Shown here: piece by piece, positions 393 through 24,400 of the stretch
Layout: each line of letters begins with the position of its first letter
How positions within the stretch are numbered: the stretch's first letter is position 1
NCBI GenBank assembly: GCA_017522785.1
Contig: JAFWYF010000040.1
Span: 1 to 45,329 of the forward strand
Direction: 5' to 3'
Source: Bacteroidaceae bacterium
GTDB taxonomy: Bacteria > Bacteroidota > Bacteroidia > Bacteroidales > Bacteroidaceae
DNA length: 45,329 nt
Notes under the pieces: generated by a model
Told to the model about the DNA's origin: nothing
The model's database searches: none
The model's input: the letters and a program-made list of their open reading frames with translations, nothing else
Position numbers and translations under genes: made by a program

Positions 393-3300
393 TTACTTAA
401 CCAATATCTTTTTAGTCTCAACTACGCCGTTAACGTAAACCATCTTAACGATGTTGATACCCTTAACAGGAGTAGAAGAAGCCGCACCACCTACAGTGTA
501 GTATGTTACTGAAAGGAGTTCATCACCCTCGGCGAACAAGTCGTCGATGTCTGAAAGAACATCATAGTTAGCATCTACAATGTACCACTGTGAAGCAAGA
601 GGTTCGTTGTACCAGTAAACAAGGCTGCTACCTTTACCTGCACCGTCTCTGTGTCCATCGGTGTGCAATGAGCTACCGAGTAGACCAACAGGTGAAAGGT
701 TGAATGTAGATCTACCTGTTACATTCTTAACAACATATACCTGTGCATCCTCTTTATCTGCAGAAACAACCTCATTAGAGTTAGCAATGTTGCCATTTGC
801 GTTAGCACCTACACCGATATAAGCACCTGTTACCTTGTGCTTGATGATGTAAGCAGCAGCTTTCTCTTCGTCGGTAAGATCTTTAACAGCCTCTGATGTA
901 GCCTCTACAGCCTCGAGAGTCCAAACGAATTCATCTGCAGCCTTAGCACCTGTGATAGCCTTCCATTTGAGATTTACATTTTCATTCTTAGTTTCGGCAT
1001 AGATACCCATCTCGTTACCTTGACTCTCATAGTATTTATCGAGACCGGAGATGAGCACATACTCTTTACCTGCCTCAACAGGAGCTTGTTTAACAGACTT
1101 AACAACTGCTATCATATCATTAACAGCATCTACTGATGCAGCGTTCTTAGCATCGCCAACAAGGGTCTCATCCTCAACTATATTGAGAGCAGCCTCAATA
1201 GCATCAGCTAGATTTGTAGAATCTTCTTTACTTACATAACCGGGGTGAGTACCAACGCGATAGCCATACTCGCTGTAAGATTCGGCAAGACCTTGGAGCA
1301 AGTAGTAGTCGGGAGTATCCATTGTTAACTTGTAAATCTTCCACTGACCCTCACCATTCTTCTTGTTGAAGTGGAGTGAGTCGCCCCATGCATCCTCTTC
1401 AGCATCGGTAACCTCGATATCTTTACCTGCGAAGTTCTTACCTACACCGGGGAGATAGCTTTGTGTTGCACGTGTTGCAAGACCGCCATCCCAGTCCATG
1501 TAAACTACATAAGGAGTAGCAACTTCTTCTTCAAGTGAATCAGTCCCGTTTACATAGAGAATATTTTTCTTGAGTTCTTTGTGCTCCTCGTATATTGCAA
1601 AGGTATTTACCATATCCTTGTCGCCAGTGAGAGGTACAATGCTCAACTGAGCAGCCTTGTCAGCGTCAGCTGTTGAAGAAGCCATAGCACCACCTGCAGT
1701 AGCTACAGAAGGCCAGTATTTACCTGTTGCAAGGCTCTGGATAGTGTACTTGTCGCCACTCTTCTTGATGCGGAATGCAACTTTCTCGCGAACAACAGAT
1801 TTGTGGAACCAGCGAGTATCGGTGTAGTAGTGAGCTACGCCCTTAACATCGCCCTCGTCGTTCTGACCGTAAACAGGGTGAGTGTTGAGCAATCCCTGGA
1901 GTACATACAAGCCATCTTCTGTAATTTGGCTGAGGTCTGTTACCTGCTCGCCAAGAGTAGCATTGTAGATGTTCTCTGTAAATACCATTGGGTCGTATTG
2001 CTCACCAACAGGTGTAAGAGCGATAGAGTCGGGGAAGAGTGAAAGTGTACCACCATTTGTAGCAAGGTCGCGGCTGATGAACTCAATAGAGAATGCTTTC
2101 ATTGCGCTGGGGAATGTGATATCGATCCAGATATACTCGCTTACAGAACCGCTCCATGGAGAGTGGAAGTAAGACTGTGCACCCGACCAGTCGCCGTCGC
2201 AAAGACGAGCAACACCACATTCAAAGCCTTCATTATCTGCAACTGCACTTGCTGCGAAATTGCTTGCGCTAAGTTCAACCTCCGAACCATCGGCATCGTA
2301 AACTTTCATTTGGCCAAGAGCAACCATAGGATAGTCGCCAAGCTTACCGTGGTTAGAAGAGTTACCGGGGATGTTACGCAACACTGTTACACGAATACCC
2401 TCAACAGCATCTTTAAGATAGAGAGATGTACGTGTCTTTTGGTTCTTGTGGCCATCGCCGTTGTCGTCGGCATTGTCATCGTTATCGGGAGCATCGGCAA
2501 GATTTACCATCTGACCTGCGGGCAATACTCTTGTTACAAACAAGTCATCGTATGTTTCGGGGAAACGCCATGCCCAGAATGCCTCAAATGCAGCATAGAT
2601 TGTTGCAATGTGGCTTACTGCTGTAGCAGGAGTACCAACAACAACAGGACTCATCAAGTTACCTGTGCAAAGCTCACTAGCCAATCTCTTAGCATCTGAA
2701 TTCAATTGTAGCAAATCTGCTTTTGCACCACTGGGATATTTACCAGCTTCCATGCTTGTAGTCCACTCATATTTAGCCTCATTAGCCTCTAGAGCAGCGA
2801 ACTGAAGGATGTAGTAACCATATTTAACAGACTCAGTCTCCAAAGTCTCTTTTGCGGCACGAATTGCAGCTGCATCCTGTGATTTAGCATCAACAAGAGC
2901 CTGAGCTGCTTCCAATGCAGTGGGGAATGCAGTCAAATCTATTCTTTGAGCTTGTGTAGAATTGTTTGTAAATACAAATTGATATTTCTCATCGGTCAAA
3001 GGCTGTACCTGTTTTACAACTGTCTCGAGTTGCTCACGCTCAACATCTGCTACAGTTTTAACCTCTAATACCTCTTTAACACCTTCTGCTTTAACAATCT
3101 TAACTTTAAAGTCTACAGGAAGACCGAATGAACCACCGGTGTAATCGCCTGTACCATCGAGAGGCTGTGCATCGAGACGCTCAAACTCATCTTTGGGGAA
3201 GATTTTCATACCTCCACGCATCTCAAGACCAACCCATACCTCTACGTTCTTATCATCTTCAACGATAACATTATCCTTGTAATACTCGTCCAATACATAA

Positions 3301-4289
3301 GAGATATAGAACTCGCCATTACCGGCATCGGTAAGTTTCATAGGCTGTGCAACGCGTACTTCGTTGTATGCATATTGCCAACCGTTCACACCGTTATATC
3401 CATTATTCCAACGACCAGCATCACCAAAATAGGTACCCATGATAGGTTGGTAGATGATGTACTCGTTCTCGTTCTCGGTAGGAATGAACTGAGTCAAAGA
3501 CTTAACTGTAACATCAGCAGGCTTCTCATAGCCCTCTTTTGTATTACTAGCCAATGCAACATACAAATCACTTGCAGGACCTGTGTACTCATTCAGAGCA
3601 GCAGCCATTGCATCGTATTTCAAAAGATATGCACCGTCGGCCTTAATGTCTGCAAGGCTTGTTACCTGCTCACCTACTGAGAAGTCGTATGAACCTGTTA
3701 CCTCCAACATTACGTCGATAATAACACCACCATTATCCATAAAAGCCTCTGTTGAACCTGTTGGGTCGATAGAGTTCCAATCGAGCATATAACGCATGCG
3801 ATAGGTACCGGGAGTAGTAGGAGTTACAAACGAAGGAAGTACGTGTGTGCTCCTGTTATCAGACGTACCTTTACTGTTGAACCATGTAGACTCATTGGGA
3901 CTTGCATTAGAGTAACTTACCAAGTCGCCTGTAGGAGTGAAACCATCATCTGCAACACCAGAAGTGAATGCGTTATCACCATCAGCATCGATGAAAAGAT
4001 AACCGTGCATCCAAGAACCACCGTAAGTAACATCCATAGTTACTGTTTCGCCTGCAGCGGCTTTCATCTTTGCTGTTTGAGTGAGGTCGGCATAGGCCAT
4101 ACCATACTCTTCTGCTGTCAAATTCACTGTGTTACCAGGATATGACGCATAAATTGAATTGAGTTTAAGGGCTGTAACATTACGGTCAGCACGGGTCTTT
4201 TTACCAGTGTTGACTACATCATAACCCTCTGCCCATGCTGCTGTAGTGAAAACTAAAGACAGCAAGAAGAAAAATAGATTTTTTCTCAT
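393..4289 (-). CDS. Large secreted multidomain surface protein with T9SS-like C-terminus
   Basis: A 1298-aa exported protein of unknown substrate. Residues 1-20 form a signal peptide ending AWA. Residues about 60-200 resemble a GEVED-type beta domain (an FIDADGD loop and a later GTYRMRYM strand). A module starting GEQVTSLADIKADGAYLL (about 205) recurs as GEQVTDLSQITEDGLYVL (about 782). An Asp/Asn-rich stretch near 605 looks calcium-binding, and about 630-740 looks like a discoidin/F5-8C domain (LCDGDWSG, YIWIDITF). Stretches near 830-900 and 1130-1230 resemble beta-trefoil lectin repeats. The last ~25 residues (GINIVKM then KKILVK) resemble a short type IX sorting tail. Adhesin or glycan-binding protein is the best inference; no catalytic motif was seen. 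It stands alone, has a strong terminator, and is flanked by repeats. Confidence 0.8.
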   Translation of the reverse strand: MRKNLFFFLLSLVFTTAAWAEGYDVVNTGKKTRADRNVTALKLNSIYASYPGNTVNLTAEEYGMAYADLTQTAKMKAAAGETVTMDVTYGGSWMHGYLFIDADGDNAFTSGVADDGFTPTGDLVSYSNASPNESTWFNSKGTSDNRSTHVLPSFVTPTTPGTYRMRYMLDWNSIDPTGSTEAFMDNGGVIIDVMLEVTGSYDFSVGEQVTSLADIKADGAYLLKYDAMAAALNEYTGPASDLYVALASNTKEGYEKPADVTVKSLTQFIPTENENEYIIYQPIMGTYFGDAGRWNNGYNGVNGWQYAYNEVRVAQPMKLTDAGNGEFYISYVLDEYYKDNVIVEDDKNVEVWVGLEMRGGMKIFPKDEFERLDAQPLDGTGDYTGGSFGLPVDFKVKIVKAEGVKEVLEVKTVADVEREQLETVVKQVQPLTDEKYQFVFTNNSTQAQRIDLTAFPTALEAAQALVDAKSQDAAAIRAAKETLETESVKYGYYILQFAALEANEAKYEWTTSMEAGKYPSGAKADLLQLNSDAKRLASELCTGNLMSPVVVGTPATAVSHIATIYAAFEAFWAWRFPETYDDLFVTRVLPAGQMVNLADAPDNDDNADDNGDGHKNQKTRTSLYLKDAVEGIRVTVLRNIPGNSSNHGKLGDYPMVALGQMKVYDADGSEVELSASNFAASAVADNEGFECGVARLCDGDWSGAQSYFHSPWSGSVSEYIWIDITFPSAMKAFSIEFISRDLATNGGTLSLFPDSIALTPVGEQYDPMVFTENIYNATLGEQVTDLSQITEDGLYVLQGLLNTHPVYGQNDEGDVKGVAHYYTDTRWFHKSVVREKVAFRIKKSGDKYTIQSLATGKYWPSVATAGGAMASSTADADKAAQLSIVPLTGDKDMVNTFAIYEEHKELKKNILYVNGTDSLEEEVATPYVVYMDWDGGLATRATQSYLPGVGKNFAGKDIEVTDAEEDAWGDSLHFNKKNGEGQWKIYKLTMDTPDYYLLQGLAESYSEYGYRVGTHPGYVSKEDSTNLADAIEAALNIVEDETLVGDAKNAASVDAVNDMIAVVKSVKQAPVEAGKEYVLISGLDKYYESQGNEMGIYAETKNENVNLKWKAITGAKAADEFVWTLEAVEATSEAVKDLTDEEKAAAYIIKHKVTGAYIGVGANANGNIANSNEVVSADKEDAQVYVVKNVTGRSTFNLSPVGLLGSSLHTDGHRDGAGKGSSLVYWYNEPLASQWYIVDANYDVLSDIDDLFAEGDELLSVTYYTVGGAASSTPVKGINIVKMVYVNGVVETKKILVK

Positions 4290-4520
4290 AACAATTGATT
4301 TAGGTTAATAAATTAAATATAGTTATTATCTCTCGTTTTTATTTTCCTTATTTATATAGTGCATTTAAGTACCTTGTTACTACCATTTACCCTTGGTACC
4401 TAAAATGTCCAATATGTTTTATCGTGCAAATATTAGATTTTTTTTTCTATTCTCAAAAAAATAATTAAGTTTTATTTCTTTATATAAAAAAATTTACACA
4501 AACCATTGTTATTTGTAAAC

Positions 4521-4833
4521 AAATATAGCAACAAACGAGCTAAATACATAAAGCTTGCTTTAATGTATTTTACCGAGAGTGCAGTATATATTCGCGGTTT
4601 ACCGCAAATACATAAAGAAACGAGCGAGAAATATGAAGTTTACTTCAATATTTTTCAAAGCGAGTGCAGTATATATTCGAGGTTTACCTCAAATATAGCA
4701 ACAAACGAGCTAAATACATAAAGCTTGCTTTAATGTATTTTACTGCGACGACGCGAAAATAGCGTCGTTTGCGACAACTGAAGCTTTAGCTTCACAAAGG
4801 AGTATTGAACTCTGCGTATTGTCAATGAACTTC
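4521..4833. repeat. Array of small hairpins with variable stems and conserved loops
   Basis: At least seven stem-loops lie in tandem. A 50-bp unit (4521-4572) is repeated exactly at 4691-4742; each contains a 13-bp stem (aaatacat/atgtattt plus aaagc/gcttt). Between them gcgg-TTTA-ccgc (4594-4605), gaag-TTTA-cttc (4635-4646) and gagg-TTTA-cctc (4679-4690) keep the loop but change both stem arms together. Further hairpins are cgacgc/gcgtcg (4749-4767), gaagc-TTTA-gcttc (4780-4793) and gagt/actc (4800-4812). The flanking text gagtgcagtatatattcg is shared by two units. Confidence 0.8.
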
Positions 4834-4936: not shown

Positions 4937-5095
4937 TGCGCATGGGCGTTTTCTTAACGAAAAATGTAGCTATTTTTTGGAGGCTCCGGAAGCATGCGCT
5001 ATTGCGTTGTAGAAAAGATAACGGCATAGCGCATTATGTCCTCGCTTTTTCTCCAAAAAAATGAACGCTACATTTTCCTAAAAACTTAATGCGCA
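4937..5095. repeat. 159-bp imperfect palindrome
   Basis: The two ends carry tgcgcat (4937-4943) and atgcgca (5089-5095). Inside, aaaatgtagc (4961-4970) faces gctacatttt (5067-5076), a T-run ending ggag (4972-4982) faces ctccaaaaaaa (5051-5061), and the core atgcgctattgc (4994-5005) faces gcatagcgcat (5024-5034). The pairing extends almost end to end with small bulges, so it could fold as one long hairpin in RNA or a cruciform in DNA. It resembles a MITE in size and symmetry, but no transposase or clear target duplication was seen. Confidence 0.65.
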
Positions 5096-24241: not shown

Positions 24242-24312
24242 GTTTGTAATTTTTAGAAATTGTTATTTTAAAGTTAATATATCTTTTTTCTCTCTTTCAT
24301 TTCAATTCACTG

Positions 24313-24400
24313 CGGAAAGAGGGGGATTCGAACCCCCGATACGCTTTTGACGTATACACGCTTTCCAGGCGTGCCTCTTCAACCACTCGAGCATCTTTCC
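24313..24400 (-). tRNA. tRNA-Ser (anticodon GGA)
   Basis: Read on the minus strand: acceptor arm ggaaaga pairs with tctttcc, anticodon stem cacgc/gcgtg encloses ctGGAaa, a long variable arm follows as in class II tRNAs, and the T arm is gggggttcgaatccccc. CCA is not encoded after the discriminator G. Class II shape plus GGA anticodon gives serine (UCC/UCU codons). Confidence 0.96.

Follow-up and report, generated by a model that had tools for sequence, protein, structure and literature searches.

The question raised by this locus is what kind of element is formed by a cluster of short hairpins that keep a TTTA loop while their stems differ in sequence. The window (the whole 45,329 nt stretch of Bacteroidaceae DNA analysed here) was found to contain four perfect TTTA-loop hairpins with arms of at least 4 bp, located at 4594-4605, 4634-4647, 4679-4690 and 4779-4794, in agreement with a preliminary description of this DNA. 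The number of such hairpins expected by chance within 4521-4833 had a mean of 0.03, and four were reached in none of 5000 dinucleotide shuffles; on the plus strand of the window outside the array, three further TTTA hairpins were present. The preliminary description also reported two copies of a 50-bp unit with a 13-bp stem bracketing three of the hairpins. This unit is real, with an identical 54 bases found at 4520-4573 and 4690-4743 bracketing three of the TTTA hairpins, and a stem that reads as 13 bp, interrupted by a single bulged base and closed by a loop of two. A fifth hairpin, absent from that description, was identified in the array at 4749-4767. The array has a period of 85 nt, with its three register copies sharing 76-100% identity, and a CRISPR was rejected as the 85-nt units adjoin without spacers. 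The minus strand of 4521-4800 folded better than 200 of 200 shuffles both as DNA (z -5.3) and as RNA (z -7.8).

The meaningful reading of the array is that of the minus strand, with the plus strand being its antisense. In minus-strand order, the array consists of accessory hairpins (4812-4749) followed by H2, box, H1, H2, box, H1, H2 and a last box (4520-4527). The accessory part begins with a weak hairpin GAGT-TCAAT-ACTC (4800-4812), which is possibly the upstream array end and the positional equivalent of GACGGTTAAAACCGTAC in locus L005. It continues with the hairpin TGAAGC-TAAA-GCTTCA (4779-4794, previously noted as gaagc/gcttc) and with CGACGC-loop-GCGTCG, then TCGC (4749-4767), a module the like of which was also found in arrays at other loci and in other genomes. 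These are followed by hairpin H2 (4711-4742, the second of two identical copies), the unit end GCTCGTTTGTTGC (4698-4710), hairpin H1 (4670-4697, previously gagg/cctc) with the box TATATTTG in its 5' arm (4690-4697), the linker CTGCACTCGC (4660-4669), an H2 hairpin with GAAG-TAAA-CTTC (4626-4655) and the unit end GCTCGTTTCTTTA (4613-4625). The final part comprises hairpin H1 (4585-4612, previously gcgg/ccgc) with the box-like TGTATTTG in its 5' arm (4605-4612), the H1-H2 linker CTGCACTC (4577-4584), the first identical copy of H2 (AAAGC-AA-GCTTT, 4541-4572) and the conserved unit end GCTCG-TTTGTTGC (4528-4540), in which CTCG and 8 nt lie ahead of the box. The terminal -7 box TATATTTG (4520-4527), assigned from its sequence and the published consensus TAnnTTTG (PMC7366714), forms the array end closest to the downstream gene. 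This gene is a 1298-aa ORF on the same minus strand (393-4289), with its ATG positioned 231 nt from the terminal box, compared to a family median of 33 nt. Directly upstream of the array lies a second, unrelated long inverted repeat (approximately 4961-5076; AAAATGTAGC...GGAG / CTCC...GCTACATTTT), which includes arms at 4994-5008 and 5020-5034. A tRNA-Ser (GGA) is situated elsewhere in the window (24312-24400, minus strand).

The array belongs to a dispersed family of 85-bp units, of which it represents one copy, and is not a single ncRNA locus. Searches of its own genome (2.1 Mb) gave 18 matches with BLAST, and a covariance model based on 78 units identified 27 units there (E<=1e-3). An absence of related arrays elsewhere had been named in the preliminary description as evidence against it; the element was identified in all 44 congeneric genomes searched, with 8 to 97 units each, the high counts being lower bounds as 97 candidates were scored per genome. 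Restriction to one genus, as first indicated by BLAST (44 of 44 genomes inside, 0 of 57 outside), was overturned by the covariance model. With this model, matches at E<=0.01 were obtained in 143 of 301 family genomes and 17 of 30 genera, the own genus included, in a scan that scored 14 candidates per genome and whose weak matches depend on rough E-values. Strong matches outside of the genus (E below 1e-15) were present in 15 genomes, with 12 of these belonging to genus g70. Examination by eye of 30 out-of-genus loci, among which L213 and L224 are neighbouring units within one array, showed all to possess box, hairpin, CTCG, hairpin, CTCG, seven or eight bases and box, a retention of architecture that is partly built in as the covariance model itself runs from box to box; the box was degenerate in some of them (L207, L208, L211 and L215). 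Named contigs with the exact end motif (46 stretches) were MAGs called Bacteroidaceae or Bacteroidales, many of them labelled ruminant gut. Neither the 50,697 phage records nor the 72,556 plasmid records searched (blastn, E<=1e-5) contained a match, and phage or plasmid cargo was rejected.

Units were found to resemble each other more within genomes than between them (0.823 vs 0.790; one unit per locus, 87 loci, seven genomes), the difference of 0.034 exceeding the permutation maximum of 0.009. The H2 stem GAAAC/GTTTC, for example, was shared by five of 13 loci of genome G210 and also occurred at three loci in other genomes. Longer modular versions were seen by eye at L003 and L128, in two species, with additional hairpins similar in sequence and a CTCG-like motif after each. 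Five of the 13 fetched stretches of genome G013 (L232-L236) reach a contig end about 25 to 205 bases past the array, and arrays may thus break short-read assemblies and be under-counted. A common flank (ATGTAGTTTGATTAAGATTC...) was observed directly after the terminal box in two genomes (L002 from 1677 onward and L079 from 6315 onward), the own-genome copy of which continues to the contig end. The shared flank may represent a larger mobile unit by which the element is carried or targeted. The ORFs around L079 were not transposase-like by eye, and an autonomous copy at that place was rejected.

On the minus strand, each complete unit is delimited by two successive Bacteroidetes -7 boxes (TATNTTTG); for sigma-ABfr of Bacteroides fragilis, the -7 consensus is given as TAnnTTTG (PMC7366714). 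The unit of ~85 bp comprises H1, the linker CTGCACTCGC, H2, CTCGCTCG, usually eight bases and then TATNTTTG. The spacing between CTCG and the box is, by eye, eight bases in most of the units inspected, those of other genera included, and seven in L215 and L225. Across 91 arrays, the downstream limit of similarity was typically CTCG-TTTGTT-nn-TATNTTTG, and where the upstream end was intact similarity was found to start at TATNTTTG with H1. Among 100 distinct arrays, intact boxes were present downstream in 83, upstream in 46 and at both ends in 39; the 54 arrays in which the upstream box is not intact count against the explanation favoured below.

The boxes at the ends of the element were compared with those of 77 element-free promoters from these genomes, which have the profile TATNTTTGC, are T-rich at -18 to -14 and are A/T at -8 to -4. 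The same box was found in 40 element-end promoters, with a median distance to the start codon of 37.5 nt vs 46 nt for native ones. In 41 upstream array flanks (after removal of five that were element-like) the T fraction was 0.60 at -8 to -4 and 0.48 at -18 to -14, compared to 0.33 and 0.39 in a control of 77 non-coding boxes with no nearby start. Based on the box counts and these T-rich flanks, the element is situated between two boxes, flanked upstream by what resembles the native promoter half and downstream by the gene. From a set of 179 arrays that left out loci fetched via udk and radA, 161 were classifiable, and 133 of these had a same-strand ORF start within 250 nt downstream (median 33 nt), compared to 68 of 149 in a mirrored upstream control. 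The remaining 28 had either an opposite ORF end only (17) or neither (11). Inclusion of the udk- and radA-fetched loci, which favours gene starts, gave 138 of 168. The ORFs were called mechanically, and an opposite-strand ORF end also lies near 83 of the 133 arrays with a start. The ends of the element are promoter-like in sequence and are predicted to have promoter activity.

Filled and unfilled sites were compared at two loci, udk and thrA. A clear or decayed element was identified by eye at nine of 28 udk loci. In an alignment of the udk promoters, the native TTATATTTG of L123 and L131, neither of which has an element, was found to correspond to the position of the upstream box of L130, placing the element directly behind the native box; the flanks in this comparison are diverged, L123 has another repeat further on and L128 has a longer variant of the box. 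As a separate observation, another motif, TGTCATTCTGAACGTAGTGAAGAATC, was seen repeatedly in the intergenic DNA of two congeners (upstream regions of L123 and L156), one of the occurrences being in a udk promoter region with no hairpin element. For thrA, which was matched in 42 of 44 genomes searched and fetched from 30, the last four residues were I-A-N-I in all 30. Their codons read GCAAATAT (antisense ATATTTGC) in 12 of the 30, including the own genome and its closest relative G006. An array was present at the thrA 3' end in one of the 30, the own genome, with no element detected by the unit covariance model at the other 29 fetched loci. G006, which shares 94% identity with the own genome in the end part of the ThrA protein and differs past the stop codon, has no array.

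The thrA array adjoins a box-like sequence within conserved coding DNA, antisense to thrA, at the end of the gene, with diverged flanks. Because of this position in coding DNA, the box sequence itself, rather than a promoter, seems to be what is targeted. Two close genomes, with 95% DNA identity across 3 kb, differ in their radA arrays, which contain four complete units in one and two in the other, with different DNA further upstream. Promoter comparisons for radA and rsmI were less clean than that for udk, and the comparison of filled and unfilled sites is limited to udk and thrA. The variable base of the box was alike at both ends in 28 of 38 arrays with both boxes and in seven of 14 single-unit arrays; a target-site duplication is not claimed because only half of the latter agree.

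Taken together, the array is probably a tandemly expanded copy of a short, non-autonomous, mobile palindromic element of the Bacteroidaceae that targets -7 boxes and has promoter-like ends. An unlikely alternative is that CTCG, some eight bases and TAnnTTTG constitute a protein-bound promoter element, forming a cis-regulatory module whose tandem copies are spread by recombination and tune expression. This would account for the near-constant distance from CTCG to the box, also in other genera, for the 133 of 161 arrays located ahead of an ORF start and for the T-rich stretch of the unit (-19 to -15), which matches the T position of native promoters (-18 to -14). However, CTCG is absent from the native promoter profile, the genes beside the arrays do not share a common function (dnaG, udk, radA, rsmI and ssb, assigned with family models, and a tRNA), and the array at the end of thrA adjoins box-like coding DNA in antisense orientation.

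The preliminary description had proposed that the fold is kept while both stem arms change, and had suggested a covariation analysis of related arrays as a check. The proposal is borne out by an alignment of 78 units (A1), taken from 142 complete ones with near-copies removed, in which pairing is kept in 90.2% of cells and both sides have changed in 14 of 23 pairs. The covariation score was 0.299, against 0.119 (sd 0.006) for shuffles and 0.03-0.065 for slid structures; related sequences can beat shuffles with no structure being present, while slid controls preserve relatedness. The near-terminal palindromes H1 and H2 were present in the 78 aligned units and covary. Furthermore, the -7 box is part of H1, and the 3' arm of H1 and the terminal box are complementary. 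The variable base of the box formed a Watson-Crick pair across the stem in 36 of 67 units, each locus and state being counted once, vs 20.1 expected (0 of 20000 permutations, which include all arm bases). In first units, where the box should be that of the host, this base was paired in 16 of 35 vs 9.6 expected (159 of 20000 permutations).

A strand-specific RNA should favour G-U over A-C mismatches. Across 19 stem pairs, a set that omits the constant T-G of H1, the variable box pair and two end or loop pairs, 25 G-T and 29 A-C mismatches were counted (p 0.68), and across all pairs except the constant T-G the counts were 35 and 47. The pair that closes the 2-nt loop of H2 is T-A in 37 and C-G in 35 of the 78 units, and covaries. 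DNA hairpins with TTTA loops form 2-residue loops; a literature search on such loops in TTTA DNA hairpins returned nothing. Because G-T mismatches are not in excess over A-C and a covarying pair closes a 2-nt loop, the sequences point to hairpins that act as DNA rather than RNA. Among the roles put forward in the preliminary description, protein-binding DNA hairpins or recombination sites therefore come nearer than a structured non-coding RNA. Its interpretation stood as regards the pairing, while the antisense nature of the plus strand, the -7-box-bounded units, the dispersed family and the putative insertion at box sequences had gone unnoticed.

Paired changes with no wobble bias, as observed here, are also predicted by neutral palindrome repair, in which template switching perfects the imperfect inverted repeats of an old, inert repeat and paired changes need no function. 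This leaves unexplained the conserved unpaired parts (CACTCGC, CGCTCGTTTGTT), the box boundaries and the stems common to several loci of one genome, and is improbable as the full account; it may contribute alongside. The weakest reading is that of a structured RNA, with transcription through the array giving 5' leaders or a small RNA and hairpins kept for RNA function, which would fit the strong covariation, the RNA fold and the T-G pair of H1 (conserved in 73 of 78 units and a wobble on the minus strand only), but is opposed by the mismatch counts, by the covarying pair at the 2-nt loop, by transcription from the last box, which would begin downstream of the array, and by Rfam, no family of which fits the array (tRNA only for the window at the gathering threshold; no credible match for arrays of seven loci at E<=5).

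The reading of the array as a mobile element targeting -7 boxes draws on the dispersal of the family, the box-to-box units, the filled and unfilled sites at two loci, the pairing, the within-genome likeness and the differing unit numbers, each established by sequence comparison. Insertion would occur at a pre-existing sequence resembling TATNTTTG, in most cases the -7 box of a promoter of the host, after which a box would be present at each end of the element. The upstream box would retain the native upstream half of the promoter, with the downstream box gaining a promoter-like spacer from the element. The site difference at udk and thrA is taken to reflect insertion and not loss, and the acting form would be a DNA hairpin processed by an enzyme supplied in trans. 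Transcription would persist since the boxes are regenerated, and spread without gene silencing would be possible as the element rebuilds a promoter box at its own end. Extra units may arise from recombination or slippage between boxes.

At the ends of IS200/IS605 elements, a guide beside the hairpin pairs with the cleavage site, an arrangement resembled here by the pairing of the H1 arm with the box. The Y1 transposase (Y1_Tnp) was not detected in the own genome and was identified in five of 44 congeners, with one of these five loci having the element in the fetched flank. Membership of IS200/IS605 is not claimed because of this absence and the low number of congeners with the gene. Y1_Tnp was also found in six of ten genomes of other genera. 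A more tentative proposal is that these are self-inserting promoters across the family, in which the 3' arm of H1 (CGAANATA) might find the host -7 box (TATNTTTG) by single-stranded DNA pairing in the manner of the IS200/IS605 guide, and insertion might regenerate a working promoter, with the fixed T-G mismatch preventing the arm from forming a second, reversed box and so giving the reaction its direction; this is conceivable rather than probable.

If the mobile element reading is true, a mobile hairpin element that targets the promoter box has entered many promoters of gut Bacteroidaceae or supplied the material from which they were rebuilt. This would provide a route by which regulatory DNA spreads without gene destruction, would account for an abundant palindromic repeat in these genomes and would make promoters testable as mobile units.

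A literature search, with most subscription journals outside its scope, gave no title describing the element, and comparison was made with known repeats. PATEs (palindrome-associated transposable elements), which are related to IS200/IS605 (PMC3119063), are likewise short and transposase-free with near-terminal palindromes and many diverged copies per genome. They also have a fixed short target next to the element, as found here for TATNTTTG, which borders 83 of 100 arrays on the downstream side and 46 on the upstream side, and at the udk and thrA sites. In contrast to PATEs, the present element has a -7 box as its target, occurs in tandem arrays, has a box that pairs with an arm of the element and has no Y1 gene in its own genome. 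REPINs with their RAYT transposase (PMC8049555) are similarly palindromes that persist as within-genome populations, whereas the units here are direct tandem ones and not two inverted REPs, the target is a promoter box, and the search of the own genome for a Y1-type gene was negative. The BrickBuilt MITE of Porphyromonas gingivalis (PMC4596501) shares an occurrence in Bacteroidetes, an intergenic location and tandem repeats, and promoter activity has been reported for it. Its description sets it apart, with a 23-nt repeat, a leader and tail, inverted-repeat ends and, in the portion compared, no -7-box boundaries noted. With respect to MITEs, the H1 3' arm of the present element is complementary to the terminal box. 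Pneumococcal BOX elements (PMC3049150) are also modular, with a tandem middle module, predicted hairpins and reported effects on neighbouring genes. By their description they differ in having boxA and boxC ends and in being enriched between convergent genes, unlike the arrays studied here, which are mostly upstream of genes. The -7 box as both target and boundary is absent from the PATE, REPIN, BOX and BrickBuilt descriptions, as far as these were compared. Matus-Garcia, Nijveen and van Passel reportedly described putative mobile promoters in 2012, in which promoter sequence moves between genes. In comparison to these, the element identified here has covarying hairpins and would take a promoter box as its target.
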